A DNA stretch of 64,000 bases, from assembly GCA_947454955.1 (NCBI GenBank), contig CANGLW010000001.1:124001-188000 (forward strand). The letters are read 5' to 3'. The notes under the pieces are model-generated. The model did no database searches, was not told where the DNA came from, and was given only the letters and a program-made list of their open reading frames with translations. This DNA is from Comamonadaceae bacterium (GTDB lineage Bacteria > Pseudomonadota > Gammaproteobacteria > Burkholderiales > Burkholderiaceae_C). Each line of letters opens with the position of its first letter. Within the stretch, counting starts at the first letter, position 1. This document shows, piece after piece, positions 36,494 to 64,000 of the stretch. The translations under genes and the position numbers were made by a program.

Positions 36494-36698
36494 GGTCTCC
36501 TTATGTGCCTAGCTTACCGTGCGCAGCCCGCCCTCCCCATTGGTAGCTACCCCAAAGCCACGCTGCATGTTGGCAAGAAGGCTAAGGCTTGGTCAAACGC
36601 CAGCGTGTCATTTCGAATTAGACTTTGTGTAGCCACCCATTCGTGATGCCCTTGTCGTGCAACCCATACTTGCCCCCACTTTGGTCCCTAGATCAGCC
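36494..36698. other. Divergent intergenic region
   Basis: Separates the acyl-CoA ligase from the amino-acid transporter. It contains the perfect palindrome GGTAGCTACC (36542-36551), possibly an operator; otherwise nothing recognisable. Confidence 0.4.
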
Positions 36699-37718
36699 AT
36701 GAAACACCTCGCCCCCGCCCTCCTCAGCCTGCTTGCCTTGCTTGGCACCCCCAACGCCCATGCCGGCAAAACACTGGATGCCATCAAAGCCCGTGGCCAA
36801 TTGGTGTGCGGGGTGAACACCGGCTTGGCTGGATTTGGCGCAGCCGATTCCAACGGCAAATGGAGCGGGCTGGATGTGGATGTCTGCCGCGCCACCGCCG
36901 CTGCGGTGCTGGGCGATGGCGAGAAGGTGAAGTACGTGCCCCTCAATGCGCAACAGCGTTTCACCGCCTTGCAGTCGGGCGAGGTGGACATGTTGTCGCG
37001 CAACACCACCTTCAGCCTCACGCGCGATGCGTCGCTGGGCATGCACATGACCGCGGTGATTTACTACGACGGCCAGGGCTTCATGGTGCCGGCCAAGAGC
37101 AAGGTCAAAAGCGCCAAGCAACTCAAAGGTGCGACGGTGTGCGTGCAGTCTGGCACCACCACCGAAAAAAACATGACCGACTATTCGCGCGCCAACGACC
37201 TCAAGCTCAAGCCGGTGGTGTTTGAAAAATTAGAGGCGGCCACCGGGGCTTATTTCTCGGGCCGTTGCGCAGCCTACACCACCGATGCCTCAGGCTTGGC
37301 CTCGACCCGCAACAAAGAAGCGAAGAACCCGGATGAGCACATCATCCTGCCCGAGCTGATTTCCAAAGAACCCCTAGGCCCCATGGTGCGCCGTGGTGAC
37401 GACGAGTGGTTCGCGATTGTGAAGTGGGTCATCTACGGCCTGATAGAGGCTGAGGAATACGGCATCACCCAGGCCAACCTGGAACAAATGAAAACCAGCC
37501 CCGACCCGGTGATTGCCCGCATTCTGGGCACCGGCGAAGACATGGGCAAGCTGCTGGGCCTGGAGCGCGATTGGCTGGCCAAAGCCATCAAAACCACCGG
37601 CAACTATGGCGAGATGTTTGAGCGCAATGTGGGCAGCCAGTCCTCCCTCAAACTGCCACGCGGTCTGAACAAGCAATGGAACAAAGGTGGCCTGATGTAC
37701 GCCCCACCGATCCGCTGA
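36699..37718 (+). CDS. aapJ: Amino-acid ABC transporter substrate-binding protein
   Basis: 340 residues with a Sec signal peptide (MKHLAPALLSLLALLG... AHAG). Periplasmic receptor of the general L-amino acid system: LDAIKARGQLVCGVNTGLAGF, GLDVDVCRA and GVTVCVQSGTTTEKN-type segments match AapJ/BztA. First gene of the four-gene transporter operon. Confidence 0.93.
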   Translation: MKHLAPALLSLLALLGTPNAHAGKTLDAIKARGQLVCGVNTGLAGFGAADSNGKWSGLDVDVCRATAAAVLGDGEKVKYVPLNAQQRFTALQSGEVDMLSRNTTFSLTRDASLGMHMTAVIYYDGQGFMVPAKSKVKSAKQLKGATVCVQSGTTTEKNMTDYSRANDLKLKPVVFEKLEAATGAYFSGRCAAYTTDASGLASTRNKEAKNPDEHIILPELISKEPLGPMVRRGDDEWFAIVKWVIYGLIEAEEYGITQANLEQMKTSPDPVIARILGTGEDMGKLLGLERDWLAKAIKTTGNYGEMFERNVGSQSSLKLPRGLNKQWNKGGLMYAPPIR

Positions 37719-37725
37719 ACACCGC

Positions 37726-38724
37726 ATGCACAAGCCCCTGAATTCGCACTCGGGTTCGCGCTGGCGTTGGCACAGCCGCAGCTTTCAAGCCAAGGTTTAC
37801 CAGGCGCTGTTGCTCACCGTGATCTTGGTGGTGCTTGGGTGGTTGGTGGGTAACACCGCGTCCAACATGAAGGCGCGCGGCATCCAAAGCGGTTTTGATT
37901 TTTTGTGGCAAAGCGCGGGCTTTGACATCGGCGAGAGTTTGATTGACTTTGACGCGAGCCAACCCTTTTGGCGCGCCTTTCTGGTGGGCACCCTCAACAC
38001 TTTGCGGGTGGCGCTTGTGGGCATCGTGCTCACCACGGTTTTGGGCACTTTGGTGGGTGTGGGCAAACTCTCGCGCAACGGCTTGGTGCGGATGCTGTGT
38101 GCAGCGTATGTGGAGTTGTTTCGCAACATCCCGCTGCTCTTGCAACTGCTGATGTGGTACTTGCTGCTGACCGATGCGCTGCCCGATGTGGACCAAGCTT
38201 GGGCCTTCAAAGACCTGGTGTTTTTAAGCAAAGGGGGCTTGAGCTTTCCTGTGTGGGAACACGGTGCCTGGCGCATTCCGCAAGCCGGTGCGTTTGCAAT
38301 GGAAGGTGGCGGCTCGCTCACCCCTGAGTTTTTGGCGCTCTTGCTGGGCTTGACGCTTTACACCGCCGCCTTTGTGGCCGAGGTGGTGCGCTCAGGCTTA
38401 CAAGCCGTGCCGCGCGGCCAGACCGAAGCGGCGCTGTCGCTGGGCTTGAGCCGTGGGCAAATTTTGCGGCGCATCACCTTGCCCCAGGCGCTCAAGGTCA
38501 TCGTGCCGCCCATGACCAACCAGTACCTGAACCTCACGAAAAATTCATCTTTGGCGGTGGCCATCGGCTACCCCGATGTGGTGTCGATCGCCAACACCTC
38601 GCTCAACCAAACCGGCCGCGCACTGGAATGCATCGCGGTCATCATGGCGGTGTACCTGTGCACCTCGCTCATCACCGCGGCGCTGATGAGCCGCTTGAAC
38701 CAACGCGCCTTGCGCAGTGGCTGA
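37726..38724 (+). CDS. aapQ: Amino-acid ABC transporter permease AapQ type
   Basis: 332 residues. Polar amino-acid permease with an N-terminal extra segment, and the EAA loop (QTEAALSLGLSRGQILRRITLPQ). The large periplasmic insertion between helices is typical of AapQ/BztB. Confidence 0.92.
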   Translation: MHKPLNSHSGSRWRWHSRSFQAKVYQALLLTVILVVLGWLVGNTASNMKARGIQSGFDFLWQSAGFDIGESLIDFDASQPFWRAFLVGTLNTLRVALVGIVLTTVLGTLVGVGKLSRNGLVRMLCAAYVELFRNIPLLLQLLMWYLLLTDALPDVDQAWAFKDLVFLSKGGLSFPVWEHGAWRIPQAGAFAMEGGGSLTPEFLALLLGLTLYTAAFVAEVVRSGLQAVPRGQTEAALSLGLSRGQILRRITLPQALKVIVPPMTNQYLNLTKNSSLAVAIGYPDVVSIANTSLNQTGRALECIAVIMAVYLCTSLITAALMSRLNQRALRSG

Positions 38725-38729
38725 CTTGA

Positions 38730-39824
38730 ATGGCTGATGTGCTGATTGCCCCACGCCCCGCGCCTGCCACCCACCACGGTTGGCAAGCCTGGGTGCGCGC
38801 GCAGTTGGCCGCCACACCCGCCTCGGCACTGGCCAGTGTGCTCATGCTCGGAGCCTTCTTGTGGTGGTTGCCTGAGCTGTGGTCGTGGGCGGTTGGCCGC
38901 GCGCAATTCAGCCCGTCTGCTGCGTTGTGTCGTGCGGAAGGCGTGGGTGCTTGCTGGGGCGTGGTGACCGAAAAATACCGCGTGATTTTGCTGGGCCGCT
39001 ACCCCTTGGAAGAAGCGTGGCGACCCATCGCAGCCACCCTGCTTTTGTTGCATATGGTCGTGGCCAGTTGTGTGCGGCGATGCTGGCGGCCAGCTCTGAT
39101 GTTGGCCTGGCTGGTGGCCCTGTCACTTGGCTGGTGGTTCATGCATGGTGGCGCAGGCTTGAGCCGGGTCGAAACTGAGCGTTGGGGTGGTTTGCCACTG
39201 ACGATTTTGCTCTCCACCTTGTCGATTGCTTTGGCGTTTCCGCTCGCGGTGCTCTTGGCTTTGGGCCGGCGCTCCAAGCTGCCTGCGGTGCGCACGGTGT
39301 GTGCCACCTATGTAGAAATGGTGCGTGGTGTGCCCCTGGTCTCGGTGCTTTTCATGGCCTCCTTCATGTTCCCGTTGTTGTTGCCGCAAGGCATGACGGT
39401 GGATGTGCTCTTGCGCGTGCTGGCTGGCATCAGTTTGTTTGCTGCGGCCTACATGGCCGAGGTGGTGCGCGGTGGCTTGCAGGCTTTGCCCCAAGGGCAA
39501 ACCGAAGCTGCGGCCTCATTGGGCTTGAGTTACTGGCAAACCCAGCGGCGCATCGTGCTGCCCCAGGCCTTGGCCACCGTGGTGCCCGGGCTCATGAACA
39601 ACTTCATCGCGATTTTCAAAGACACGTCGCTGGTGACCATCGTGAGCTTGTATGAGCTCACGGGCTCGCTGGGCCTGGCACTCAATTCGGATGCCGATTG
39701 GCGGCCCTTCAAGCTCGAGGCCTACCTCTTCATTGCCTTGATTTATTTTGTGTTTTGCTTGGCCATGTCTCGTTACAGTTCGCGTGTGGAACAAGATCTC
39801 AAGCGGGGGCGCACGCATGACTGA
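38730..39824 (+). CDS. aapM: Amino-acid ABC transporter permease AapM type
   Basis: 364 residues, second permease of the pair. EAA loop [18 protein letters not shown]. Several N-terminal helices precede the core permease domain, as in AapM/BztC. The stop overlaps the ATPase start by eight bases. Confidence 0.92.
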
Positions 39825-40557
39825 AGCCATCATCCAATTCGACAAGGTCAACAAATGGTTCGGGCAGCTGCATGTGCTGCGCGACATCGATTTGCAAGTG
39901 AAGGCCGGCGAGCGCATTGTGATTTGCGGCCCCTCAGGCTCGGGCAAATCCACCTTGATACGTTGCATCAACCGACTCGAAGAACACCAAAGTGGCCGCT
40001 TGGTGGTTCAGGGTGTTGAGCTGGGCGATGACCAACGCGCGATTGACGCGGTGCGCCAGCAAGTGGGCATGGTGTTCCAGCAGTTCAACCTGTTCCCGCA
40101 CCTGACCGTGCTGGAGAACCTCACCCTCTCGCCCATGCTGGTGGGCAAGCTCAGCGCTGCGCAAGCCACCGAACGCGCCATGCAGCAACTCGAGCGGGTG
40201 CGCATTGCCGAGCAGGCGCACAAATACCCGCAGCAACTCTCAGGCGGGCAGCAGCAGCGCGTGGCCATTGCGCGCGCGCTGTGCCTCACGCCCAAGATCA
40301 TGTTGTTTGACGAGCCCACCTCGGCCCTCGACCCGGAGATGATCAAAGAGGTGCTTGATGTGATGGTGCAACTGGCCGACCAGGGCATCACCATGCTGTG
40401 CGTGACGCATGAGATGGGCTTTGCCAAAGCGGTGGCTGACCGGGTGATCTTCATGGACCAGGGTCAAATCATCGAGCAGGCCACACCACAAGCGTTTTTT
40501 GAGCGAGCGCAAAGCGAGCGTGGCCAGGCCTTTTTGTCGAAAATTCTAGGGCATTGA
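39817..40557 (+). CDS. aapP: Amino-acid ABC transporter ATP-binding protein
   Basis: 246 residues from ATG 39817. Walker [10 protein letters not shown], signature LSGGQQQRV, Walker [13 protein letters not shown], switch His CVTHEMG. Energises uptake by the AapQM channel. Confidence 0.95.
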
Positions 40558-40980: not shown

Positions 40981-41484
40981 ATGGCCAAACTCAATGTCAA
41001 CGGTCAGGTGCGCGACGTCGACGCCGAACCGGAAACCCCCCTCTTGTGGGTCTTGCGTGAACAACTCGGCTTGACCGGCACCAAATACGGTTGCGGCATC
41101 GCCCAGTGCGGTGCCTGCACGGTGCACATCGACGGTGTGGCCACCCGCACCTGCGTGCGTCCCCTGGCTTCGGTCAGCGCGAACCAAAAAGTCATCACCA
41201 TCGAGGGCTTGTCCAAAGACGGATCGCACCCAGTGCAAAAAGCCTGGGCCAAGCTCGATGTGCCCCAGTGCGGCTTTTGCCAGTCCGGCATGATCATGGC
41301 CGTCTCGGCCTTGCTCAAGTCCAAGCCCAACCCCACCGACGCTGAGATCAACCAGTCCATCACCAACATCTGCCGTTGCGGCACCTACAACCGGGTGCGC
41401 GCTGCGATCAAGGTGGTGGCTGCGGGCGGCAAGACCGCCTCAGCCGCGCTGGCCATTCAACATGCCGATGGCACCACCACCTAA
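40981..41484 (+). CDS. [2Fe-2S] subunit of xanthine-dehydrogenase-family enzyme (IorA-like)
   Basis: 167 residues. Plant-type cluster ligands CGIAQCGACTVHIDG and C-terminal cluster CGFCQSGMIM...CRCGTYNRVRAAI. Electron-transfer subunit of the molybdenum hydroxylase encoded next. GGAG lies upstream of the ATG. No signal peptide, so it presumably rides out with the Tat-exported large subunit. There is no FAD subunit gene, as in isoquinoline oxidoreductase-type two-subunit enzymes that pass electrons to cytochrome c. Confidence 0.92.
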   Translation: MAKLNVNGQVRDVDAEPETPLLWVLREQLGLTGTKYGCGIAQCGACTVHIDGVATRTCVRPLASVSANQKVITIEGLSKDGSHPVQKAWAKLDVPQCGFCQSGMIMAVSALLKSKPNPTDAEINQSITNICRCGTYNRVRAAIKVVAAGGKTASAALAIQHADGTTT

Positions 41485-41494
41485 GGAGCCCGAC

Positions 41495-43663
41495 ATGAGC
41501 TTGAACCGACGCGATTTTCTGGCCACCTCTGCCGGCACGGCGGGTGGCCTGGGCCTGAGTTTTCATGTGCCCTTTGCATCCGCGCAAAACGCACCGTCTG
41601 ACCTGCCTGAGGTCAATGCCTGGGTGATCGTCAAGCCTGACGACACCGTCATCATCCGCATCGCCCGCTCTGAAATGGGGCAGGGCACGCTCACAGGTTT
41701 GGCCCAATTGGTGGCCGAAGAGCTCTCTTGCGACTGGGCCAAAGTCACCACCGAGTACCCCACCCCGGGCCAAAACCTGGCACGCAAACGCGTGTGGGGC
41801 AACATGGCCACCGGTGGCAGCCGCGGCATTCGCGAATCGCATGAGTACGTGCGCAAAGGCGGCGCTGCGGCCCGCATGATGCTGGTGCAAGCCGCGGCCA
41901 ACAGCTGGGGCGTGCCGGCTGCGGAATGCAGCGCGGCCCAAAGCGTGGTCACCCACAACCCCACCGGGCGCAAAGTGAGCTTTGGCCAGGTGGCTGCTGC
42001 AGCCGGTCAACTGCCGGTGCCAGAGGCAGCAGGCATTGCCCTCAAAGACCCGAAGACCTGGACTTTGGTGGGCAAGCGCTTGGCGCGCCTGGACACCGTC
42101 AAGAAGACCATGGGCCAGCAGAACTACGGCATCGACGTGAACCTGCCGGGCATGCTCAATGCAGCCATCAAAGACTGCCCCGTGTTCGGTGGCAAGGTCA
42201 AGAGCTTCAACGCTGCAGCGGTCGAAGGCCGTCGTGGTGTGAAAAAAGTGGTGCAGGTGGGCGCCAGCGGCGTGGCCGTGGTGGCTGACACCTGGTGGCG
42301 CGCCAAGAGCGCGCTCGATGCGCTGCCGATTGAATGGGATTTTGGCGAGCACGCCAACGCCAGCAACGAGACGATCTCGGCCATGCTCAAAGCAGGCTTG
42401 ACTGCCAACGATGCGGTGGTGGGCAACAGCAATGGCGACGCCCCCGCTGCCATTGCCTCGGCCGCTACCAAAATCGAAGCGGTCTACAGCTACCCCTACC
42501 AAAACCATGCCCCCATGGAGCCCATGAACGCCACCGCGCGTTGGACCCCTGATCGCTGCGAGGTGTGGGTGCCCACGCAAAACGGTGACGCCTCACTGGC
42601 GGCCACCGCAGAAGCTTCGGGCTTGCCGATTGCACAGTGCGAGGTGCACAAGCAGTACCTGGGCGGCGGCTTCGGTCGCCGTGGCCGTACCGACTTCATC
42701 ACCCAAGCCGTGAACATTGCCAAGCAAATGCCTGGCACGCCCATCAAGCTGGTTTGGAGCCGTGAAGAGGACATGGCGCATTGCTTCTTCCACCCGGTCA
42801 CCCAGTGCAAAGTCAGCGCGGGTCTGGATGCGCAGGGCAATGTCACCGGTTTGCACATGCGTATCTCGGGCCAGTCCATCCTGGCCACGGTGGCGCCGCA
42901 AAACATTCGCAACGGCAAAGACCCGGTGATGTTCCAGGGCCTGGACACCGCTGGCGGCGCTGAGTCCTCGATTGGTTACAGCTTCCCCAACCTCTTGGTG
43001 GACCACGCCATGCGCAACCCGCATGTGCCTGCCGGTTTCTGGCGCGGTGTGAACCTGAACCAGAACGCGATTTACCTCGAGTGTTTTGTGGACGAGATTG
43101 CCCACGCCACCAAGCAGGATCCGCTGGCGCTGCGTCGCAAACTCATGGCCAACCACCCCAAGCACCTCGCGGTGCTCAAAGCGGTGGCCGAGAAAGCGGG
43201 CTGGGACAAGCCCGCACCCAAAGGTGTGTTCCGTGGCCTGGCCCAAACCATGGGCTTTGGCAGCTACGTGGCCGCTTGCGCTGAGGTCTCGGTGAACAAA
43301 GCTGGCGACCTCAAGATCCACCGCATCGTGGCAGCCACTGACCCGGGTTACGCGGTCAACCCACAGCAGATCGAGGCGCAGGTTGAAGGCTCATTCGCTT
43401 ATGGTTTGTCAGCGGCTTTGTTTGGCGAGATCACCATCAAAAACGGGCGTGTGCAGGAAGAGAACTTCCACACCTACCCGGTGGTGCGCATGGCTGACAT
43501 GCCGCCGGTGGAAACCGTGACCGTACCTTCGGGTGGTTTCTGGGGTGGTGTGGGCGAGCCCACCATCGCGGTGGCTGCGCCAGCGGTGCTCAACGCGATC
43601 TTTGCTGCTACTGGCAAACGCATCCGCGAGTTGCCACTGAAAAAGCACAGCCTGAAGGCTTGA
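41495..43663 (+). CDS. Tat-exported molybdopterin-binding hydroxylase subunit (IorB-like)
   Basis: 722 residues from ATG 41495. The Tat motif NRRDFLATSAGTAGG predicts folded export to the periplasm. XDH-family pterin motifs GGGFGRRGRTDF (about 392-403) and the catalytic Glu in GVGEPTIAVAAP near the C-terminus are present, so Mo-dependent hydroxylation of a small carbon or heteroatom compound is expected. The substrate is unknown. Immediately followed (4 bases) by soxX, which is unusual and suggests transfer of electrons to the Sox cytochromes. Confidence 0.92.
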   Translation: MSLNRRDFLATSAGTAGGLGLSFHVPFASAQNAPSDLPEVNAWVIVKPDDTVIIRIARSEMGQGTLTGLAQLVAEELSCDWAKVTTEYPTPGQNLARKRVWGNMATGGSRGIRESHEYVRKGGAAARMMLVQAAANSWGVPAAECSAAQSVVTHNPTGRKVSFGQVAAAAGQLPVPEAAGIALKDPKTWTLVGKRLARLDTVKKTMGQQNYGIDVNLPGMLNAAIKDCPVFGGKVKSFNAAAVEGRRGVKKVVQVGASGVAVVADTWWRAKSALDALPIEWDFGEHANASNETISAMLKAGLTANDAVVGNSNGDAPAAIASAATKIEAVYSYPYQNHAPMEPMNATARWTPDRCEVWVPTQNGDASLAATAEASGLPIAQCEVHKQYLGGGFGRRGRTDFITQAVNIAKQMPGTPIKLVWSREEDMAHCFFHPVTQCKVSAGLDAQGNVTGLHMRISGQSILATVAPQNIRNGKDPVMFQGLDTAGGAESSIGYSFPNLLVDHAMRNPHVPAGFWRGVNLNQNAIYLECFVDEIAHATKQDPLALRRKLMANHPKHLAVLKAVAEKAGWDKPAPKGVFRGLAQTMGFGSYVAACAEVSVNKAGDLKIHRIVAATDPGYAVNPQQIEAQVEGSFAYGLSAALFGEITIKNGRVQEENFHTYPVVRMADMPPVETVTVPSGGFWGGVGEPTIAVAAPAVLNAIFAATGKRIRELPLKKHSLKA

Positions 43664-43667
43664 GGAC

Positions 43668-44084
43668 ATGAACACACCGGCGCGGGTTTTGGCAGGCCTG
43701 AGCCTGGCCGGTGTGCTCATGGGCTCGCAGGCCCAACCAGCGTGGGACACACCCTTGGCCAGCACGGGAGATGCCGCGCGCGGCCAAGCGATTGTGCTCA
43801 AGCGCCAAGAAGGCTTGTGCCTGCTGTGCCACAGCGGACCGTTTCCCCAAGAACCTTTCCAAGGCAATTTGGCCCCCACGCTTTCAGGTGTGGGAGCGCG
43901 CATGAGTGCTGGGCAACTGCGGCTGCGCATGATGGACAGCCGCCAGGTCAACCCCGACTCCATCATGCCGCCCTACTTCGAGACCCGTGGCCTGCAACGT
44001 GTGGGCACGGCCTTCAGTGGCAAAACGCTGCTGACAGCCCAACAGGTCGAAGACGTGGTGGCCTTTCTTCAAACATTGCAATGA
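43668..44084 (+). CDS. soxX: SoxX-type cytochrome c
   Basis: 138 residues with signal peptide (MNTPARVLAGLSLAGVLMGSQAQ region). Single heme site CLLCH and the distal Met in SIMPPYF, with the SoxX-like C-terminus. With SoxA it forms the heterodimer that oxidatively couples a sulfur substrate to the SoxY cysteine. Ten bases before soxY. Confidence 0.9.
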   Translation: MNTPARVLAGLSLAGVLMGSQAQPAWDTPLASTGDAARGQAIVLKRQEGLCLLCHSGPFPQEPFQGNLAPTLSGVGARMSAGQLRLRMMDSRQVNPDSIMPPYFETRGLQRVGTAFSGKTLLTAQQVEDVVAFLQTLQ

Positions 44085-44094
44085 GGACCTCTTC

Positions 44095-44550
44095 ATGACC
44101 GTCACGCGACGTCAACTCATGCGCAACGGCACCGCGCTGGGCGCTTGGCTGCTGGTGGGACAGGCCCAGGCCACCCCGCAGTCCATGAAAGAAGCCATCG
44201 CCGCGTTCACCAACAACACCCCGCTCAAGCGCGGCTTGGTCAAACTTGACATTGCCGAGCTGATTGACAACGGCAACACCGTGCCGGTGAGCATCAGCGT
44301 TGACGGCCCGATGACACCACAACAGCATGTGGTGGCCATTGCCCTGTTCTCTGAAAAAAACCCTGAGAGCGAAGCCTTTGTGGCCCGCATGAACCACCTG
44401 GCTGGGCGCGCAGCGGTGAGCACACGCATCCGCTTGGCGAATTCGCAAACTTTGATGGCGGTGGCCAAGATGAACGACGGCAGTTGCTGGATGCACAGCG
44501 CCGAGGTGATCGTGACGATCGCGGCCTGCATTGAAGACGAGGACATGTGA
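44095..44550 (+). CDS. SoxY-like carrier protein with AACIE arm
   Basis: 151 residues. N-terminal TRRQLMRNGTALGAWLL is a Tat/Sec-like leader. The body matches the immunoglobulin-like SoxY fold. Canonical SoxY ends in a flexible GGCGG arm whose Cys carries the substrate; here the end is TIAACIEDEDM, so the Cys is kept but the arm is AACIE plus an acidic tail. I recall an NCBI/TIGR family named 'SoxY-related AACIE arm protein', to which this clearly belongs; to my knowledge its substrate is unassigned. Confidence 0.9.
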   Translation: MTVTRRQLMRNGTALGAWLLVGQAQATPQSMKEAIAAFTNNTPLKRGLVKLDIAELIDNGNTVPVSISVDGPMTPQQHVVAIALFSEKNPESEAFVARMNHLAGRAAVSTRIRLANSQTLMAVAKMNDGSCWMHSAEVIVTIAACIEDEDM

Positions 44551-44551
44551 G

Positions 44552-44872
44552 ATGACGCAAACCCTCATCAAGATTGCGAAAACTGCACGTGCCGGTGAGG
44601 TGATCGAGGTGGCCACCACCATCGCCCACCCCATGGAAAGCGGCTACAAACCCGCGGCGGACGGCAAGCTCATTCCCCGCAACATCCTGCGCAGCTTCAC
44701 CTGTCAGTACGACGGCGCCACCGTGTTTGAGGCGCAGTTTTTCCCGGCCATCTCCTCCAACCCCTTTGTGAGTTTTCACCTGCGCGCCACCCGCAGCGGC
44801 CCGGTGCTCTTGACCTGGCGCGGTGACCTGGGCTTTAGCCACAGCGAGACAGTTCAGTTGCAGGTAAGCTGA
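44552..44872 (+). CDS. soxZ: SoxZ carrier-complex partner
   Basis: 106 residues from ATG 44552, one base after the soxY-like stop. SoxZ core: IEVATTIAHPMESGY, FTCQYDG and FHLRATRSGPVLLTW. It dimerises with SoxY in the periplasm; SoxZ is exported with its partner, and no own signal is visible. Confidence 0.92.
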   Translation: MTQTLIKIAKTARAGEVIEVATTIAHPMESGYKPAADGKLIPRNILRSFTCQYDGATVFEAQFFPAISSNPFVSFHLRATRSGPVLLTWRGDLGFSHSETVQLQVS

Positions 44873-44879
44873 GCCGAGC

Positions 44880-45659
44880 ATGCAGCGTTTCAAGCGCCCA
44901 CAGATGTACTTGGCGTGGGCCAGCGTCTTCTTGAGCAGCCTCATGAGCTTGGGTGCGCTGGCGCAAGCGCCGAAAAAATCGGGCTACGACTTCATGAGCC
45001 CGCAGCTGCAAGCCATGCAAAACGACGAGGCCAACAACCCGGGCATGCTGTGGGTGCGCCAAGGCCAAAGCTTGTGGCACAACACCACGGGGGTGAGCCA
45101 ATCGTGTGCCAGTTGTCATGGTGAACCTGCCAGCCTACGCGGCGTGGCCACGCGCTACCCAGCGTTTTCCGAGGGTTTGCAAAAACCCATCAACCTGGCG
45201 CAGCGCATCAACCAATGCCGCGAACGCCAGGGTGCACCCGCTTTCAAATACGAAAGCCAAGAGTTGTTAAGTTTAGAAACCTTGGTGGCGTTTCAGTCTC
45301 GTGGCATGCCGGTGGCTGCACCGACAGATGCTCGGTTGCTCTCATTTGTAGAGCAAGGCCGTCAACGTTATGAGCAGCGCATGGGCCAGCTCAACCTGTC
45401 TTGCGCACAATGTCACGACCAACGCGCCGGGCTGCGTTTGGGCGGTAACACCATCCCCACCGCGCACCCCACCGGCTATCCCATCTACCGATTGGAGTGG
45501 AATGGTGTGGGCAGCTTGCAGCGACGTTTGCGCAACTGCATGAATGGCGTGCGTGCCCAGCCTTATGCGCTGGGCGCTGTGGAGTTGGTGGAACTGGAGT
45601 TGTACCTGGCCAAACAGGCTCAGGGCATGGCGTTGGAAACGCCTGGCGTGCGGCCTTGA
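44880..45659 (+). CDS. soxA: SoxA-type diheme cytochrome c
   Basis: 259 residues with signal peptide. Two heme motifs, CASCH and CAQCH, and the SoxA active-site Cys in RNCMNGVRAQPY. It pairs with SoxX to attach substrate to the carrier. Its 3' end overlaps the convergent membrane-protein gene by 40 bases. No soxB or soxCD follows. Confidence 0.92.
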   Translation: MQRFKRPQMYLAWASVFLSSLMSLGALAQAPKKSGYDFMSPQLQAMQNDEANNPGMLWVRQGQSLWHNTTGVSQSCASCHGEPASLRGVATRYPAFSEGLQKPINLAQRINQCRERQGAPAFKYESQELLSLETLVAFQSRGMPVAAPTDARLLSFVEQGRQRYEQRMGQLNLSCAQCHDQRAGLRLGGNTIPTAHPTGYPIYRLEWNGVGSLQRRLRNCMNGVRAQPYALGAVELVELELYLAKQAQGMALETPGVRP

Positions 45660-47414: not shown

Positions 47415-48095
47415 TTAGGCCGGGTTCAAGAGATGCGCAGGCCAGCGCAGTTGATGGCCGGTGCGCTCAGCGAAAGCGGCAATGTCAGCTTCGGTGTCTA
47501 CATCGGTCAGGTAGCGGTTGTTGGTGGTGGACCAACGCAAGACTTGCGCAGGGTTGGCTTGCTGCCACTGCTTGCAGCCCCATTGTTGATCGCCCGCCAA
47601 AATCGCGTCTTTGACCAAGGTGCTGAACATCACCGGGTTACCGGGCACGCCGTCTTTTTCTGGCACCACCACTTGCACACCTTCAGGGCGTTTTTTGTAG
47701 GCCCCTATCAAATCGGTGGCGTCTTGCGCGTTGATCAAGGGTTGGTCCGCCAAGGCCACCAGCACCGCATCGAGTTTGCTTGATAAGGCCTGCAAACCCA
47801 AATGCAAAGAGCTGTTCTGCCCATTGTCAGGGTTGGGGTTGCGTACCAGGGTGACCGGGAAGGTGCTCACGGCAGGTTCAATTTGATCAGCGTAGTGGCC
47901 CAGCACCACCACCACCTCATCCACCCCAGCGCCTGAAAGCGCGATGAGTTGGCGACGGATCAGCGAGACGCCGCCCAACTCCAGCAAACATTTAGGCTTG
48001 CCGCCCATGCGTGAGGCCGAACCCGCAGCCAGCAGGACTGCGCCGACCGTCAAACGGTTGTAAAGACCACCGCCGCCTTTGAGTATGCAACCCAT
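47415..48095 (-). CDS. MocA-like molybdenum cofactor cytidylyltransferase
   Basis: 226 residues. NTP-transferase motif LLAAGSASRMGGKPKCL, then ADQPLI and PGNPVMF. Adds CMP to Mo-molybdopterin, making the MCD cofactor that xanthine-dehydrogenase-family enzymes (including CoxL) need. Its ribosome binding site GGAGG lies in the last codons of the upstream XdhC gene. Confidence 0.88.
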   Translation of the reverse strand: MGCILKGGGGLYNRLTVGAVLLAAGSASRMGGKPKCLLELGGVSLIRRQLIALSGAGVDEVVVVLGHYADQIEPAVSTFPVTLVRNPNPDNGQNSSLHLGLQALSSKLDAVLVALADQPLINAQDATDLIGAYKKRPEGVQVVVPEKDGVPGNPVMFSTLVKDAILAGDQQWGCKQWQQANPAQVLRWSTTNNRYLTDVDTEADIAAFAERTGHQLRWPAHLLNPA

Positions 48096-48096
48096 G

Positions 48097-49008
48097 TCAG
48101 CCTCCGCAACAAGATTTTTTAACTGGCTCCATGACGGCCGGGGCTTTGGCTTTGCTGCCGCAGCAAGACGCTGCAGGTGCAGCCTGAGTTTGAGCAGGTT
48201 CAGAAACTGCGTTTGCTACACTTTCAGTAGCAACCGTTTCTTGCATAACGGCACGCACAGGCTCTTCTGCTTTGAAATATTCTGTCGGGTTACGGCGTTT
48301 GGCCACCACATCAAACAAGACCGAGAGTGCGATTTCTTCAGGGGTCTGCGCACCCACCAAGCGTCCGGCCGGCGCAATGATGGCATCGACCGCATGCGCG
48401 TTTTCACCGCTGGTTTTGAGGTTGTCTTTGAGCACCTGTGCCTTGCGTGCACTGGCCACAAACCAGACACACTGCGCCTGGACACCCAAGGCAGCGCGCA
48501 AGGCATTGATATCGCCACGGCCTTGCGTGGCGACCACCACCCAGGGCGAGCGCGGCAGGTTCTCGCCGCTTTGCACGGTCGCTTGGGCATGCACTTGCAA
48601 GCCCACCTGCGGTGCGAGCTTGACCAGGGCTTGCGCCACCGGGGAGTCGCCCAGCACCATCAATGAAGCGGGAGGCAGCACGGGGTCGATGAACAACTCC
48701 AGGGTGCCGCCGGAATGGCAGCTCATGCCGAACTCGAGCACATCATCCAGCGTGCGCTCGACCGACTCACCACTGGGGGTGATGCGGATGGTGCGGGCCT
48801 GGCCGTCAGCCAAGGCCAAACGTGCCGCTTTCACGACCGCAGGCTGCGCGCAGCCACCGCCGATCCAGCCCTCGATCACGCCATCGGCACTCACCAAGGC
48901 TTTGTCGCCAGGACGTGCCGAGGTGGGGGCCTGCACACGCAGCACACTCACCAAAGCAAAAGGAATACCGGCTTGTTGCCGGGCTTGGGCCAATTCAAAA
49001 ATTTGCAT
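48097..49008 (-). CDS. coxF: XdhC/CoxF-family cofactor maturation protein with CCG tail
   Basis: 303 residues from ATG 49008. N-terminal XdhC_CoxI domain (IGGGCAQPAVVKAARLAL) and C-terminal Rossmann domain (LMVLGDSPVAQALVKLAP). It inserts or sulfurates the molybdenum cofactor; in the cox system CoxF works in maturing the CuSMoO2 centre. The tail ends in two CCG motifs (SCCGSKAK... KSCCGG), a likely copper, sulfur or selenium binding site. A GCTAC/GTAGC hairpin lies at 48213. Confidence 0.88.
   Translation of the reverse strand: MQIFELAQARQQAGIPFALVSVLRVQAPTSARPGDKALVSADGVIEGWIGGGCAQPAVVKAARLALADGQARTIRITPSGESVERTLDDVLEFGMSCHSGGTLELFIDPVLPPASLMVLGDSPVAQALVKLAPQVGLQVHAQATVQSGENLPRSPWVVVATQGRGDINALRAALGVQAQCVWFVASARKAQVLKDNLKTSGENAHAVDAIIAPAGRLVGAQTPEEIALSVLFDVVAKRRNPTEYFKAEEPVRAVMQETVATESVANAVSEPAQTQAAPAASCCGSKAKAPAVMEPVKKSCCGG
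48213..48233. repeat. Dispersed hairpin inside coxF
   Basis: TTGCTAC, loop ACTTTCA, GTAGCAA: a perfect 7-bp stem. Encodes VATESVAN with AT-rich codons in a variable tail. Confidence 0.55.
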
Positions 49009-49016
49009 GCCTGACC

Positions 49017-50201
49017 TCAATGAAGTTGATGGCTGGCCACCACCAGGTCTTGCAAGGTGGCCATGGGAATGAAGCGGTCGATGCTCGCACGTGCGTGCTG
49101 TATCGCCTCGGAGGATGGTACGCCACGGGTGGGGTGAAACCATGTGACTTTCACGGATCTGGCGCGCAAACTTTGCAGCGCTTGCGCGAGCTCCAAAGGT
49201 GGGTCGGCATCAAAGCCATCAGAGAACACCCACACACGTGCACCGGTGTGCAATTGCGCGCGGGCATGGACCTGCACAAAGTCTTGCAGGCTGGTGGCGA
49301 TGCGGGTGCCACCACCAAAACCTGCCGTGACCGCGTTGATTTTTTCCTGTACCCGGCCGGAGTCGCGTTCCAACCAAGAGGTGATTTCGCTCAAGCGGGT
49401 GTGAAACACAAAGGCCCGTGTGGGCGTGGCCTGCACAAAGGCGCGGGCCATGCGCAAAAACAACTGCGCATGGCTTTCCATGGAGCGGCTCACATCCACC
49501 AGGATGAAGAGGCGCGGCTGGATGCGGCGCGGTTGTTTCCAGGCTGGCTTGATCGGCAAGCCACCATGGGCCACGCTGCTGCGCAGGGTCTTGCGCACGT
49601 CCAGCCGGTGGCCCGCGTTGTGCCATTGCTGGCGACGCACCAAGCGCTTGCGCAGCTGCTGAGCGATGCGCTCAGCCACCTGGCGCAAACCCGCCAAATC
49701 TTGCGGCAACCACTGCGAGAGCTCACGGTCATGCAGGGCTTCGGTGCGGGTGGCACCACCCTGGGCACGCGGCTGCGCGTCACCGTCTTGCAAGGCCGCG
49801 TGGTCAGACACATCGCTGCTGCGCGGAGCAGCGTTGTTTTGGGGTTGCGAAGCTGCGTCCATGTCGGCGTGCATGGCCTGCACTTGCTCACGCAGCGAGC
49901 GCGAGGGGCGGGTCTGCCCGCTCACACGCACCGTGCCTTTGATGCGGTGGGGAAACCAAAAACGATCGAACAACTCAGGCCACTGGCGCCACTCACGCAC
50001 ATGGCAACATGCAATCGAACGCCAGGCAGCTGAGATATCTTCTGCCCTGGTAGCTCCTAAATGCATAGCGGCTTCGAGCATGCTTTGCTGTTCAGCCACA
50101 CCCACCGTGAAGCCCTGGTCACGCAACAAAGCTGCAAATTGCGCCAGGTTCTCGACGGGCCAGCTCGCAGCCGCTACGGTTTTCACGGCGCGAGCATGCA
50201 T
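49017..50201 (-). CDS. coxE: CoxE-like VWA-domain protein
   Basis: 394 residues. VWA metal-ion site DVSRSM (DxSxS) in the second half, preceded by an Arg/Gln-rich region. Partner of the MoxR-type ATPase CoxD in assembling the [CuSMoO2] active site of CO dehydrogenase. Three bases after coxD. Confidence 0.9.
   Translation of the reverse strand: MHARAVKTVAAASWPVENLAQFAALLRDQGFTVGVAEQQSMLEAAMHLGATRAEDISAAWRSIACCHVREWRQWPELFDRFWFPHRIKGTVRVSGQTRPSRSLREQVQAMHADMDAASQPQNNAAPRSSDVSDHAALQDGDAQPRAQGGATRTEALHDRELSQWLPQDLAGLRQVAERIAQQLRKRLVRRQQWHNAGHRLDVRKTLRSSVAHGGLPIKPAWKQPRRIQPRLFILVDVSRSMESHAQLFLRMARAFVQATPTRAFVFHTRLSEITSWLERDSGRVQEKINAVTAGFGGGTRIATSLQDFVQVHARAQLHTGARVWVFSDGFDADPPLELAQALQSLRARSVKVTWFHPTRGVPSSEAIQHARASIDRFIPMATLQDLVVASHQLH
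50053..50069. repeat. Dispersed AT-cored motif inside coxE
   Basis: On the minus strand GCTATGCATTTAGGAGC. Same GCTAT-ATTT-AGC pattern, coding for AMHLGA near the N-terminus. Confidence 0.35.
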
Positions 50202-51750: not shown

Positions 51751-54162
51751 TCAGAGGGCCACGCCGTGCTTCTGGAGTTCTTTCCAGACGCGGAAGGCGT
51801 TGTGTGGCATGTTGAGGTGGGTCACACCCAGGTGCGAGAAGGCATCGACCACCGCCGAGGTGAAGGTGGGGATGGAGCCAACGTGCGGCGACTCGGCCAC
51901 GCCTTTGGCACCGATGGGGTGATGCGGCGAGGGTGTCACGGTGTGGTCAGTTTCCCACTTGGGTGTTTCCACCGCGGTAGGCAAGAAGTAGTCCATCAGC
52001 GTGTTGCCCAACAGGTTGCCCTGGGCATCAAACGGCATTTGCTGGCCCATGGCCACGGCAAAGCCTTCGGTCAAACCACCGTGGATTTGGCCGTCGATGA
52101 TCATCGGGTTGATGCGGGTGCCGCAGTCGTCCAGCGCGTAGAAGCGACGGATCTTGGTCTCGCCGGTGCCACGGTCGATGTCGACCACGCACAGGTAAAT
52201 ACCGAAGGGGTAAGTGAAGTTAGGTGGGTCGTAGTAGTGCACGGCTTCCAGGCCTGGCTCCAGGCCAGCTGGTGGCTGGTGGTAAGCCTGCCAAGCGATG
52301 TCGCTCATGGTCTTGAAGCGGCTGTCGTCGCCCTTGACCTTGAAGCGGTCCACTTCCCAGTCCAGGTCGTTCTCACCGACTTCGAGCATGTGCGCCGCAA
52401 TCTTGCGGGCTTTGGCGTGGATTTTGCGCGCAGCCAAGGCGATGGCTGCACCGGCCACGGGGGTGGAGCGCGAACCATAGGTGCCCAGGCCGTAAGGCGC
52501 GGTGGAGGTGTCGCCCTCTTCCACTTGAATCACTTCACTTGGAATACCCAGCTCGGTGGCGATGATCTGCGCATAGGTGGTCTGGTGACCTTGACCTTGC
52601 GTGATCGTGCCCATGCGCGCAATCGCGCTGCCAGTGGGGTGAATGCGGATTTCGCACGAGTCGAACATGCCCACGCCCAAGATGTCGCAAATCTTGCTCG
52701 GGCCGGCACCCACCACCTCGGTGAAGGTGACCAAACCAATGCCCATCAACGTGGGGCTGTTGGGGTCGGCACGCTTGGCAGCTTGCTCAGCACGCAGGGC
52801 TTTGTAGTCCACCGCATCCAGCACTTTTTGCAAAGCGGTGTGGTAGTCGCCAGAGTCGTACTCGAAACCAAAGGCGCTGGTGTAGGGGAACTGTTCTTTC
52901 TTGACGAAGTTCTTGGCGCGGATCTCGGCCTTGTCCATGCCCAGCTTCTGCGCCAGCACGTCGACCATGCGCTCGATCAGGTAGACGGCCTCGGTCACGC
53001 GGAACGAGCAGCGGTAAGCCACACCACCGGGGGCCTTGTTGGTGTAGACACCTTTGACGCTGGCGTGCGCTGCGGGAATATCGTACGAGCCCGAGCAGAT
53101 GTGGAACAAACCAGCAGGGAACTTGGTGGGGTCTGCACACGCGTCAAACGCGCCGTGATCGGCCACCACATTCACACGCAGGCCAGTGATCTTGCCGTCA
53201 GCGGTGGCGGCGAGTTCGCCGTCCATGTGGTAGTCACGGGCGAAGGCGGTCGAAGAGATGTTCTCGATGCGATCTTCCACCCACTTCACGGGCTTGCCCA
53301 GCACGATGGAGGCCACGATGGCGCAGACATAACCGGGGTACACACCCACCTTGTTGCCAAAGCCGCCACCAATGTCGGGCGAGACGATGCGCACCTTGGA
53401 CTCAGGAATGCCTGAGAGCATGGACACCACGGTACGCACCACGTGAGGTGCTTGCGAGGTGATGTAGGTGGTCAGGTCGCCACGCACGGGGTCGAACGAG
53501 GCCACGCAACCGCAGGTCTCCAGCGGGCAGGGGTGCACGCGGGGGTAGTGCATGCTTTGCGACACGGTCACTTCAGCTTTGGTGAAAGCGGCATCAGCCG
53601 CTTCTTTGTCACCGGCATTCCAGGTGAAGATGTGGTTGTGGTGATCGCGCGCGCCGTGGGCGCCAGTGGTCTTGCCGGCCAGGTCTTCACGCAGCACAGG
53701 TGCGTCGGGCTTGAGGGCTTCGAAGGGGTCGAGCACCACGGGCAGTTCTTCGTACTCCACTTCAACGGCTTCCACCGCGTCAGCAGCGATGTAGCGATCG
53801 TCAGCGATGACGATGGCCACCTCTTGCATCTGGAAGTGGACTTTCTCGTCGGCCAACACTGCAGCCACGTCACCGGCCAGGGTGGGCATCCAGTGAAGCT
53901 TCAAAGGTTTGAGGTCATCGGCGGTCAACACAGCGTGCACGCCAGGAATGGCCAGCGCAGCTTCTTTGTTGATTTTCTTGATGCGGGCGTGGGCCACAGG
54001 CGAGCGCACGATGTCCATGTGCAGCATGCCGGGCATCTTGATGTCGTCGACATAGTTGCCCTTGCCCTGGATGAAGCGGGCATCTTCTTTACGCAGGCGC
54101 GAAGCGCCCATACCGGCCAGGGCCAGTTCGCGTGCTTCAGGGGAATTAACGGGAGCGTTCAT
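51751..54162 (-). CDS. coxL: Form I aerobic CO dehydrogenase large subunit
   Basis: 803 residues. The active-site loop is VAYRCSFR, with Cys at residue 385; AYxCSFR is the form I signature, and this Cys binds copper in the CuSMoO2 centre. Other Mo-cofactor motifs are GGGFGNKVG (265-273) and a catalytic Glu in GVAESPHVG (about 765). It oxidises CO to CO2. Length and order M-S-L match true CO dehydrogenases of Oligotropha type rather than form II. GGAG precedes the ATG. Confidence 0.97.
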   Translation of the reverse strand: MNAPVNSPEARELALAGMGASRLRKEDARFIQGKGNYVDDIKMPGMLHMDIVRSPVAHARIKKINKEAALAIPGVHAVLTADDLKPLKLHWMPTLAGDVAAVLADEKVHFQMQEVAIVIADDRYIAADAVEAVEVEYEELPVVLDPFEALKPDAPVLREDLAGKTTGAHGARDHHNHIFTWNAGDKEAADAAFTKAEVTVSQSMHYPRVHPCPLETCGCVASFDPVRGDLTTYITSQAPHVVRTVVSMLSGIPESKVRIVSPDIGGGFGNKVGVYPGYVCAIVASIVLGKPVKWVEDRIENISSTAFARDYHMDGELAATADGKITGLRVNVVADHGAFDACADPTKFPAGLFHICSGSYDIPAAHASVKGVYTNKAPGGVAYRCSFRVTEAVYLIERMVDVLAQKLGMDKAEIRAKNFVKKEQFPYTSAFGFEYDSGDYHTALQKVLDAVDYKALRAEQAAKRADPNSPTLMGIGLVTFTEVVGAGPSKICDILGVGMFDSCEIRIHPTGSAIARMGTITQGQGHQTTYAQIIATELGIPSEVIQVEEGDTSTAPYGLGTYGSRSTPVAGAAIALAARKIHAKARKIAAHMLEVGENDLDWEVDRFKVKGDDSRFKTMSDIAWQAYHQPPAGLEPGLEAVHYYDPPNFTYPFGIYLCVVDIDRGTGETKIRRFYALDDCGTRINPMIIDGQIHGGLTEGFAVAMGQQMPFDAQGNLLGNTLMDYFLPTAVETPKWETDHTVTPSPHHPIGAKGVAESPHVGSIPTFTSAVVDAFSHLGVTHLNMPHNAFRVWKELQKHGVAL

Positions 54163-54197
54163 AGGTGGTCTCCAAATTTAATGTGTGCGGTTTAGGC

Positions 54198-54683
54198 TCA
54201 GGCGGCCACAGGCTCTTGCAATTTGCGGGCAGCGTACTGAACCGCTTTGATGATGTTTTGGTAGCCGGTGCAACGGCACAGGTTGCCACTCATGCCCATG
54301 CGGATTTCTTCTTCCGTGGGGTTGGGGTTCTCTTGCAAAAAGCGGTAAGCGCGCATGAGCATGCCGGGGGTGCAGAAACCGCACTGCAGGCCGTGCTCTT
54401 TGTAAAAACCTTCTTGCACCGCGTGCAGCACGCCGCCTTGGGCCAGACCTTCAACGGTCAACACATCGCTGCCTTCGCACTGCACCGCCAGGTGGGTGCA
54501 AGACTTGACCGAGCGGCCATCGATGTCCACGGTGCACGCACCGCAGTGGCTGGTTTCGCAACCAATGTGGGCGCCGGTGAGGTTGAGCTCTTCACGCAGG
54601 AAGTGGATCAGCAGGGTACGGGGTTCAACGGCTTTTTCAACAGCGCGGCCGTTGACGTTGACGTTCACAATTTTCTTAGGCAT
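54198..54683 (-). CDS. coxS: CO dehydrogenase small [2Fe-2S] subunit
   Basis: 161 residues from ATG 54683. Two clusters: [15 protein letters not shown] and CGFCTPGML...CRCTGYQNI. Passes electrons from the Mo centre to FAD in CoxM. GGAGAGACAAC upstream of the start. Confidence 0.96.
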
Positions 54684-54700
54684 GTTGTCTCTCCGGGGAA

Positions 54701-55564
54701 TTACTGGCAGCGAGCCAGGGCGTTCTTGAGGGCGCGCTTGACCATCTGACGGGCCATGGCGGTTTTGTATTCGGGGTCGCCACGCAGGTCTTCGGCGGGG
54801 TCGCAAATGGCCATCGCAGCTTGGGCTGCAGCTTCCATCGTGGTCTCGTTGATGGGCTGACCGATCAAGGCTTGCTCAGCCGCTTCAGCGCGCAAAGCGG
54901 TGGGGCCTAAGTTGGTCAGGGCCATGCGGATGGCGCTGACTTTGCCGCCAGCCATTTGCATGACCACCGCGCAACCGGCCGTGGCCCAGTCACCGGTTTT
55001 ACGCTTGAGCTTTTCATAAGCCCAGCCAGCACCCGGGGCGATAGCGGGCACGCGAATGGCCACCATGATTTCGTTCTCTTCCATCAAGGTCATGTAGGTG
55101 CCCAAGAAGAAGTCGTTGGCAGCCACGGTGCGGCGGCCATTGGGGCCTTCGAGCACGAACTCAGCGTCGAGCGCGATGGACAAAGCGGGGTGGTCGTTGC
55201 CGGGGTCGCCGTGGGCGATGTCGCCGCCAATCGTGCCGCGGTTGCGCACTTGCGGGTCAGCAATCAGCTTAGCTGCTTCGGCCAGCAAGGGTGCTTTGGC
55301 TTGGATGATGGGCGAGGTGATGAGGTCGTTCTCAACCGTCATCGCACCAATGACCACGGTGTTGCCGTCTTCGCAAATGCCACGCAACTCAGGGATGCGG
55401 TTGATGTCGATCAGATGCGCCGGCTGCGCAAAGCGCAGCTTCATCATGGGTAGCAAGCTGTGGCCGCCCGCCAAGATCTTGGCATCGGATCCTAGTTGGC
55501 CCAACAGGGTGATGGCCTCACCCACAGAGCGGGGGGCGTGGTAGTCAAAACTCGGGGGAATCAT
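54701..55564 (-). CDS. coxM: CO dehydrogenase FAD-binding medium subunit
   Basis: 287 residues from ATG 55564 (GAGGAG 6 bases upstream; the longer frame crosses the promoter region). FAD motifs [13 protein letters not shown] and [17 protein letters not shown] are characteristic of CoxM. First structural gene of the CO dehydrogenase operon, about 110 bases from a LytTR-type operator. Confidence 0.96.
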
Positions 55565-55671
55565 GGGCTCTCCTCTTTGTGAAAAATGAAACCGAGCCAG
55601 TGTAATTTTTATCAATTCCCGAGGGCCGCACCCCACTATTCGGGTTAACTGGGATGAAAGAGGCTATGACT

Positions 55672-61483: not shown

Positions 61484-61508
61484 CTCTGCTTCCTCAAAAC
61501 GCCAGATT

Positions 61509-63644: not shown

Positions 63645-63653
63645 GTTCTCTCC

Positions 63654-64000
63654 TTAAGCGCGCATGGCAGCGGCAGCGTCTTTGATGGCGGCCTTGATGC
63701 GGCCGTAAGTACCGCAACGGCAAATGTTGCCGCTCATGGCAGCGTCGATGTCAGCATCGCTGGGGTTTTTGTTGCTGGCCAACAAAGCTGCCGCGCTCAT
63801 GAGCTGACCCGACTGGCAGTAACCGCACTGGGGCACATCGTGCTTGATCCAGGCTTTTTGCAGGGGGTGGCTGTTGTCTTTGGACAGGCTCTCGACCGTC
63901 GCCACTTTGGCGCTGGACACGGCCGACAAAGGTGTGGAGCATGAACGCACAGGCTGGCCGTTGACGTGCACCGTGCAAGCACCGCACAGGGCCGCACCGC
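63654..64000 (-). CDS. [2Fe-2S] subunit IorA-like, N-terminus cut by window edge
   Basis: The visible part begins in the first cluster ([13 protein letters not shown]) and includes [10 protein letters not shown] and [13 protein letters not shown]. Partner of the hydroxylase encoded nine bases downstream. The first about 45 residues lie outside the window. Confidence 0.92.

Follow-up and report, generated by a model that had tools for sequence, protein, structure and literature searches.

Introduction

Several described systems come close to the locus presented here, a six-gene operon that joins the subunits of a molybdenum (Mo) hydroxylase to soxX, soxY, soxZ and soxA within a 64,000-nucleotide stretch (the window) of a Comamonadaceae bacterium genome (contig CANGLW010000001.1, positions 124,001 to 188,000). 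On the one side are Mo hydroxylases of the AldFGH and IorAB types, which use a cytochrome subunit. On the other is the canonical Sox (PSO) pathway, in which, according to PMC9959259, thiosulfate is attached by SoxXA to the cysteine at the C-terminus of SoxY, with hydrolysis by SoxB and oxidation by SoxCD as the further steps. A further SoxYZ-type carrier beside a periplasmic dehydrogenase is the quinoprotein dehydrogenase-associated protein of family TIGR04557 (Pseudomonas putida PP_2677); in the sections of PMC12997753 on the ped cluster of P. putida, the SoxYZ-like carrier stands next to pyrroloquinoline quinone (PQQ) dehydrogenases.

Here we find that the Mo hydroxylase, of the cytochrome-linked type, together with SoxXA and a SoxYZ carrier with a re-tooled arm, very probably makes up one functional and evolutionary unit in sulfur metabolism, SoxB-free and associated with a flavocytochrome c sulfide dehydrogenase (FCSD) that is encoded in the cluster or at another site of the same genome. 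Each protein family, and the name of the SoxY variant, is known already. Searches of open-licence papers brought up no account of the whole Mo-Sox(-FCSD) system, which is weak evidence of novelty.

Architecture of the operon

The operon spans window positions 40981–45659, with all six open reading frames (ORFs) on the + strand:

40981..41484, + strand: small subunit with two [2Fe-2S] domains (Fer2 and Fer2_2), the electron relay of the Mo enzyme (PF01799, 3e-28; PF00111, 3.7e-8)
41495..43663, + strand: large molybdopterin subunit, IorB/AldFGH-like, with MoCoBD_1/2 domains and a twin-arginine leader, NRRDFL (ORF opens at 41462)
43668..44084, + strand: soxX, cytochrome c with one CxxCH (TIGR04485, 76.3 bits, cut-off 61)
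44095..44550, + strand: soxY variant, AACIE-arm carrier with the twin-arginine pattern TRRQLM (TIGR04487, 172.5 bits, cut-off 172)
44552..44872, + strand: soxZ, carrier partner (TIGR04490, 80.2 bits, cut-off 76; ORF opens at TTG 44531)
44880..45659, + strand: soxA, di-haem cytochrome c keeping the RxRxC cysteine site in the alignment (TIGR04484, 213 bits, cut-off 110)

The large subunit probably starts at 41495, where its sequence opens with MSLNRRDFL and the twin-arginine pattern; the alternative start at 41462 overlaps the small subunit. For soxZ the ATG at 44552 is a plausible start, the alternative at 44531 being a TTG inside soxY. With these refined starts the genes are separated by 10, 4, 10, 1 and 7 bases. 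The first-pass annotation of this stretch gave gaps of 1–10 bases, and its six ORFs are present where it placed them, on the + strand and with matches to family profiles. The ratio of nonsynonymous to synonymous substitution (dN/dS) between the window and locus L175 is 0.07 for both Mo subunits and 0.11–0.23 for the sox genes, and that between L203 and L204 is 0.06–0.19, with the large subunit lowest in both pairs. Purifying selection appears to act on each of the six genes, and because gene order and strand are in addition conserved across loci (see further results below), the operon is more than a chance arrangement.

The Mo enzyme has the MoCo domains, the two [2Fe-2S] domains, the catalytic glutamate and the fold of the xanthine oxidase family. 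Its nearest solved relative is the membrane-bound aldehyde dehydrogenase of Gluconobacter (AldFGH, 8gy3), with 28% identity over 666 aligned residues. The glutamate of C–H hydroxylases (G-x-G-E) is kept, and the strict form G[VI]GE is found in 185/192 large-subunit ORFs; the other seven comprise two fragments, four with G-x-G-E and another residue at x, and L137, with IGE. The two-[2Fe-2S] small subunit, the twin-arginine pattern of the large subunit, the fold over the same 666 residues and the catalytic glutamate are all shared with AldFGH and IorAB. In contrast to those systems, the six-gene operon has no dedicated cytochrome subunit: soxX, soxY, soxZ and soxA stand in its place, and the only cytochromes encoded there are SoxX and SoxA.

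The carrier arm and the SoxXA loading site

The window SoxY, a member of PF13501, ends in VTIAACIEDEDM, and its arm reads IAACIEDEDM. GGCGG is the C-terminal end of canonical SoxY in other families and in the window's own genome, and in its place the re-tooled arm has the consensus AC-hydrophobic-[ED]. The protein accordingly has no GGCGG arm and reaches 89 bits against the canonical profile TIGR04488 (cut-off 125). It passes TIGR04487, "SoxY-related AACIE arm protein", by a margin of 0.5 bit; the first-pass annotation had mentioned that a family name for the variant exists. The name already stands in the annotation of Methylobacterium NMS14P, but it is a name for one protein, and searches of open-licence papers brought up no described pathway, substrate or Mo partner for TIGR04487, although a note on gene neighbours may stand in the family's own commentary. 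Across 158 distinct SoxY rows from the surveyed loci, which include a few on contigs too short to show Mo genes and one from the Mo-less L106, the arm cysteine is invariant (158/158); it is preceded by alanine in 155 rows and has an acidic residue two positions further on in 155 (Glu in 144, Asp in 11). The idea that the arm is a SoxB-compatible variant was set aside, since soxB-free genomes retain an AACIE-type arm.

The window proteins have the features of SoxXA, with scores above the TIGR04484 and TIGR04485 cut-offs, the haem motifs (both of them in SoxA) and the SoxA cysteine site with its arginine, which, from structural work on SoxXA, we take to be the loading site. The motif R-x-[RK]-x-C occurs in 20 of 21 aligned SoxA sequences, five of the 21 not being Mo-linked; L137 lacks the arginine spacing. 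The unit thus has in common with the canonical pathway SoxX, SoxA and SoxZ above the NCBIfam cut-offs, the SoxA cysteine site and a SoxY in PF13501, and differs from it in having AACIE for GGCGG, in lacking soxB and soxCD, and in occurring in soxB-free genomes. The distance from TIGR04557 is also clear, since SoxY and SoxZ of the window are separate genes scoring 45.3 and 37.2 bits against a cut-off of 140, whereas the P. putida system, in the parts of PMC12997753 that set it out, consists of a fused SoxYZ, a PQQ enzyme and a SoxH-like metallohydrolase, with no SoxXA named there.

Conservation of the Mo-Sox linkage

A TIGR04487 search at E<=1e-22 matched 76/399 Burkholderiaceae genomes, 50 of them above the curated cut-off. 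We retained 72 as unit-bearing, all scoring at least 102 bits, the 50 included, with arms that also comprise SACVD, SACLD and IGACES; G224, G277, G424 and G571 (82–88 bits, soxYZ with FCSD, arms SGCGM or similar) and a second match in G585 were excluded. Within the window's genus, 18/26 genomes have an AACIE SoxY, and among 274 genomes that sample many families of the class, none but that of the window exceeds the TIGR04487 cut-off. The regions compared came from 71 loci of the family, 14 additional loci of the genus and several of the class, and a scan of GTDB r220 contributed 80 loci kept of 518 relatives, from genomes that overlap with the family and genus sets. Loci cut by contig ends were left out (6/71 family, 3/14 genus and 14/80 GTDB loci, and L182).

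Both Mo subunits precede and adjoin soxY in 63/65 assessable family loci. All six genes occur in the same order and on the same strand in 60/65 family loci, 11/11 genus loci and 66/66 GTDB loci. Carriers of the unit named in the GTDB scan include Curvibacter, Polaromonas, Noviherbaspirillum, Duganella, Massilia, Rhizobacter, Ramlibacter and Methylibium. The five family exceptions are L099, in which soxX was not found; L133, in which soxA was not found; L141, in which neither was found; L106, with no Mo genes; and L137, which has only distant Mo genes on the other strand. The first-pass annotation had asked whether an IorAB-type pair always adjoins an AACIE SoxY, and in these overlapping sets it does so almost always. 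Clustering of flanking ORFs, which were chosen by length so that small genes may be missed, gave no conserved extra neighbours beyond apparent local synteny: the largest cluster outside the operon, an ATP-binding cassette (ABC) protein, covers 13 of 86 loci, and a lipoamide-dehydrogenase-like protein is present in 17 of 90, with other pyruvate-dehydrogenase-like parts (named by reading, with no profile).

Independence from SoxB

It is the operon, and not the cell, that lacks soxB and soxCD. The first-pass annotation had stated that neither gene is here; this holds for the operon, and tblastn found neither in the examined flanks of the six-gene loci, but it does not hold for the genome (2.78 Mb, 101 contigs, 94.8% complete), which encodes three SoxY proteins and one soxB. 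Contig C2 (L005) carries soxC, a soxD-like cytochrome gene, soxY(GGCGG), soxZ, soxA, soxX and soxB, all except the soxD-like gene exceeding NCBIfam cut-offs. The same annotation had named a canonical soxB/soxCD set that uses the AACIE SoxY as evidence that would tell against it; the canonical set of this genome has a GGCGG SoxY of its own. Contig C4 holds a second soxC (L006, 5625-8276; TIGR04555, 590 bits, cut-off 420), apart from the canonical set, beside a cytochrome-like protein with no family match and then a SoxY-like protein ending in GGCQR that passes no SoxY cut-off.

At E<=1e-150, soxB is present in 215/399 Burkholderiaceae genomes, with an excess among those that bear the unit (53/72 versus 162/327 of the others; Fisher p 2e-4). 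At this threshold it was not found in 19/72 unit-bearing genomes, partly drafts, 18 of which are at least 96% complete. On the annotation's second question, whether soxB is lacking alongside the unit, these 19 genomes speak in its favour, as the linkage does on the first, and because of them we conclude that the unit does not depend on SoxB. In a SoxA tree the Mo-linked proteins lie far from canonical Burkholderiaceae SoxA, a distance that rests on L005 and L307-L310; L314 (G383) and L317 (G347) were labelled canonical but are Mo-gene-type copies.

An FCSD partner

The annotated plasmid clusters of Methylobacterium and Roseomonas, through which this partner came to light, encode a small cytochrome-type protein and a flavoprotein in which both FCSD domains, PF09242 and PF21706, are present (two proteins tested); FCSD was then counted across loci. 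Like FCSD/SoxEF, the partner is a flavoprotein with PF09242 and PF21706, usually accompanied by a small cytochrome, and it adjoins the unit in many genomes; in the window's genome, by contrast, the one FCSD (PF09242) lies on contig C12 and is not linked to the operon. The flavoprotein adjoins the unit in 26/66 assessable GTDB loci, with 84–259 bases between the aligned segments (tblastn): in 21 loci it follows soxA, in one it precedes the unit on the same strand, and in four it is upstream and divergent. In the family survey it stands beside four loci and L137, and in 7/12 phylum genomes it is placed between the large subunit and soxX.

Genome-wide, PF09242 was found in 70/72 unit-bearing genomes versus 51/80 drawn AACIE-negative family genomes (Fisher p 1e-7; shared ancestry ignored), the latter including carriers of the convergent version described below, such as G337. 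The contrast comes from the soxB-free genomes (19/19 unit-bearing versus 18/47 others; p 1e-6, shared ancestry again ignored), because soxB-positive genomes nearly all have FCSD either way. As a separate observation, L149-L153 carry soxYZ with an SGCGM-type arm adjoining FCSD genes, with no soxXA found, and represent another carrier-arm variant.

A convergent layout and occurrence beyond the family

The large subunit as query matched 81/399 family genomes at E<=1e-180. Seven loci (L183, L184, L185 and L187-L190) have a convergent layout, in which soxXYZA lies tail to tail with the Mo genes on the other strand; their large-subunit copies are ~57-62% identical and their SoxY proteins end in TSSACFDAS or TATACFDET. 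The linkage thus persists in a rearranged form. Some collinear copies carry SACVD or SACLD arms. In a phylum sample, 13/249 genomes have the large subunit. Among the 12 other than the window's own, soxX, soxY, soxZ and soxA follow it in eight; G878 has soxX, soxY, soxZ and the start of soxA, the view there being limited to 1.5 kb; of the remaining three, one shows just soxX and soxA and two show no sox genes. A further 36 plasmid records match, all from alphaproteobacterial genera, and of six inspected two carry the sox set (Methylobacterium NMS14P and Roseomonas marmotae) and four do not. The alphaproteobacterial versions, the SACFD arm type and the repeated FCSD partner lay beyond the view of the first-pass annotation.

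In the large-subunit tree, a quick tree with long branches at L137 and L305, the sox label changes eight times, five of the changes being forced by starred branches. We read this as early linkage with several losses, in a tree that cannot tell gain from loss; for the same reason we claim no number of independent origins. In L137 (G585), soxXYZA follows FCSD genes and has an IGACES arm; the distant IorAB pair and an apparent quinoprotein dehydrogenase lie on the opposite strand.

Neighbouring genes in the window

Directly upstream of the operon, genes at 36657-40557 (+) read like an amino-acid-type ABC transporter, and similar proteins recur in 6-8/86 loci. Downstream, on the − strand, lie an aerobic CO dehydrogenase set (51751-55636; large subunit TIGR02416, 1576 bits, with 2Fe-2S and FAD subunits) and, with it, mocA-, xdhC- and coxE-like genes (47415-50201) that converge on the sox operon. 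Although mocA, xdhC and coxE looked like maturation helpers of the operon's Mo enzyme, they were not counted as such, because they lie with the CO dehydrogenase set and, among the compared loci, adjoin the operon in none but the window and L175; mocA/xdhC do adjoin some of the sox-free relatives. A second IorAB-like Mo hydroxylase pair, with its own XdhC, occupies 60491-63998 (−); its large subunit is 41% identical to that of the operon.

Discussion

Comparative sequence evidence gives good support to a self-contained periplasmic oxidation module that would be distinct from the canonical Sox pathway. Its placement in sulfur metabolism follows from its ties to FCSD and SoxXA. The carbon-hydroxylase nature of the Mo enzyme points to an organic partner rather than a simple replacement of SoxCD, and leads to a model with a tethered thiol, which SoxXA would attach to SoxY; its carbon part would be oxidised by the Mo enzyme and its sulfur would pass to FCSD. 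We put this chemistry forward tentatively, as a possibility with somewhat less than an even chance. SoxXA would oxidatively join a low-molecular thiol, R-SH, to the SoxY cysteine to give R-S-S-SoxYZ; the Mo enzyme would then hydroxylate, with water, a C–H bond of R (an aldehyde or a carbon near the sulfur), and electrons would leave via the two [2Fe-2S] clusters to c-type haems of SoxXA or of the small FCSD-type cytochrome. Loss of the C–S bond would leave a carrier persulfide or sulfide, which FCSD may oxidise. The bulkier, acidic arm would exclude the AACIE carrier from SoxB and SoxCD.

Several observations weigh against this account. Xanthine-oxidase-family enzymes usually oxidise aldehydes and N-heterocycles, not thiols, and the carrier-bound substrate for the Mo enzyme is chemistry that we only infer. 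Nine relatives ~58-72% identical (L181, L186, L191, L193, L197, L198, L201, L202 and L303) have no sox genes in the examined flanks, and a c-type cytochrome adjoins four of them. In G816 (L300) the order is small subunit–large subunit–soxX–soxA, and its single-contig genome has no SoxY match. The Mo enzyme can apparently work without SoxYZ. Conversely, L106 (G347) has soxXYZA and no Mo genes, and soxB-positive genomes show no FCSD excess (51/53 versus 33/33, in tests that ignore shared ancestry).

Because such sox-free relatives and the one SoxXA-only genome exist, a model with a free substrate stays close behind the tethered one, although we consider it unlikely on balance. Here the Mo hydroxylase would oxidise a free periplasmic aldehyde or sulfur heterocycle, SoxXA would be the electron acceptor that replaces the cytochrome subunit, and SoxYZ and FCSD would only collect released sulfur. 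An aldehyde dehydrogenase is the nearest solved relative, close relatives in Sinorhizobium, Agrobacterium and Methylosinus (there a multihaem cytochrome) have a c-type cytochrome and no SoxYZ, and G816 keeps SoxXA without SoxY. On the other hand, soxYZ is kept in 65/65 assessable family loci, which were however found through soxY, and in 9/10 soxXA-bearing phylum genomes, for which the Mo subunit served as query; the arm shows special conservation; and L141 keeps soxYZ adjoining the Mo genes, with neither soxX nor soxA there.

The first-pass annotation had proposed that the Mo enzyme takes the place of SoxCD/SoxB and oxidises an organosulfur or other nucleophile loaded on the carrier by SoxXA. 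In the form weighed here, the enzyme would oxidise the carrier-bound sulfur itself, whether thiosulfate or sulfane. The intact SoxA cysteine site and the 19/72 unit-bearing genomes without soxB would fit such a role. The fold and catalytic glutamate, however, are those of carbon (C–H) hydroxylases of the xanthine oxidase family, SoxC belongs to another Mo family, and several enzymes ~58-72% identical have an ordinary c-type cytochrome next to them or lack sox neighbours altogether. A direct substitution is accordingly improbable, and the annotation's overall interpretation is partly supported.

The excess of soxB among unit-bearing genomes could alternatively mean that the AACIE carrier feeds the same cell's canonical SoxB/SoxCD, with the Mo enzyme as an accessory. 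Against this stand the 19 genomes without soxB, the separate GGCGG SoxY of this genome's canonical set and the position of Mo-linked SoxA in the tree, so that we regard it as slightly more improbable again. The Sox genes might also serve the enzyme rather than a pathway, the SoxYZ persulfide repairing or re-installing the sulfido ligand at its Mo centre in the periplasm. Such a role would account for the link between a sulfur carrier and an enzyme dependent on a Mo=S ligand, but the sox-free relatives manage without it and the FCSD link is left unexplained, making it very improbable. Plain co-location of two unrelated units, by chance or shared regulation, is the least credible account: a few copies of either half do occur alone, which favours it, but both halves are together in 63/65 and 66/66 assessable loci, in two layouts and two classes of Proteobacteria.

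The preferred reading, one Mo-Sox unit acting in sulfur metabolism with FCSD, bears on how sox genes are interpreted. The unit is present in 72/399 sampled Burkholderiaceae genomes, about one in five to six, some of them without soxB, and sox-gene surveys in which soxA, soxX, soxY or soxZ is taken to mean thiosulfate oxidation may misinterpret these genomes. If the tethered model is true, the substrate of a Mo hydroxylase would be held by a carrier protein during its oxidation, and organic sulfur would have a Sox system that dispenses with SoxB and SoxCD. The broader version of that model, a doubtful extension, is a widespread and undescribed periplasmic route: organic thiols held on a Sox carrier would be oxidised by a xanthine-oxidase-family enzyme, FCSD would act next, and SoxB and SoxCD would not be needed. 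Should the carrier hold organic sulfur, strains with the unit such as Polaromonas sp. JS666 (L205) and Curvibacter delicatus (L203) would make it possible to test whether, in soil and freshwater, the turnover of organic sulfur is linked to that of inorganic sulfur. Many soil and freshwater bacteria probably use it to oxidise some sulfur compound, perhaps an organic one, without the usual Sox enzymes.

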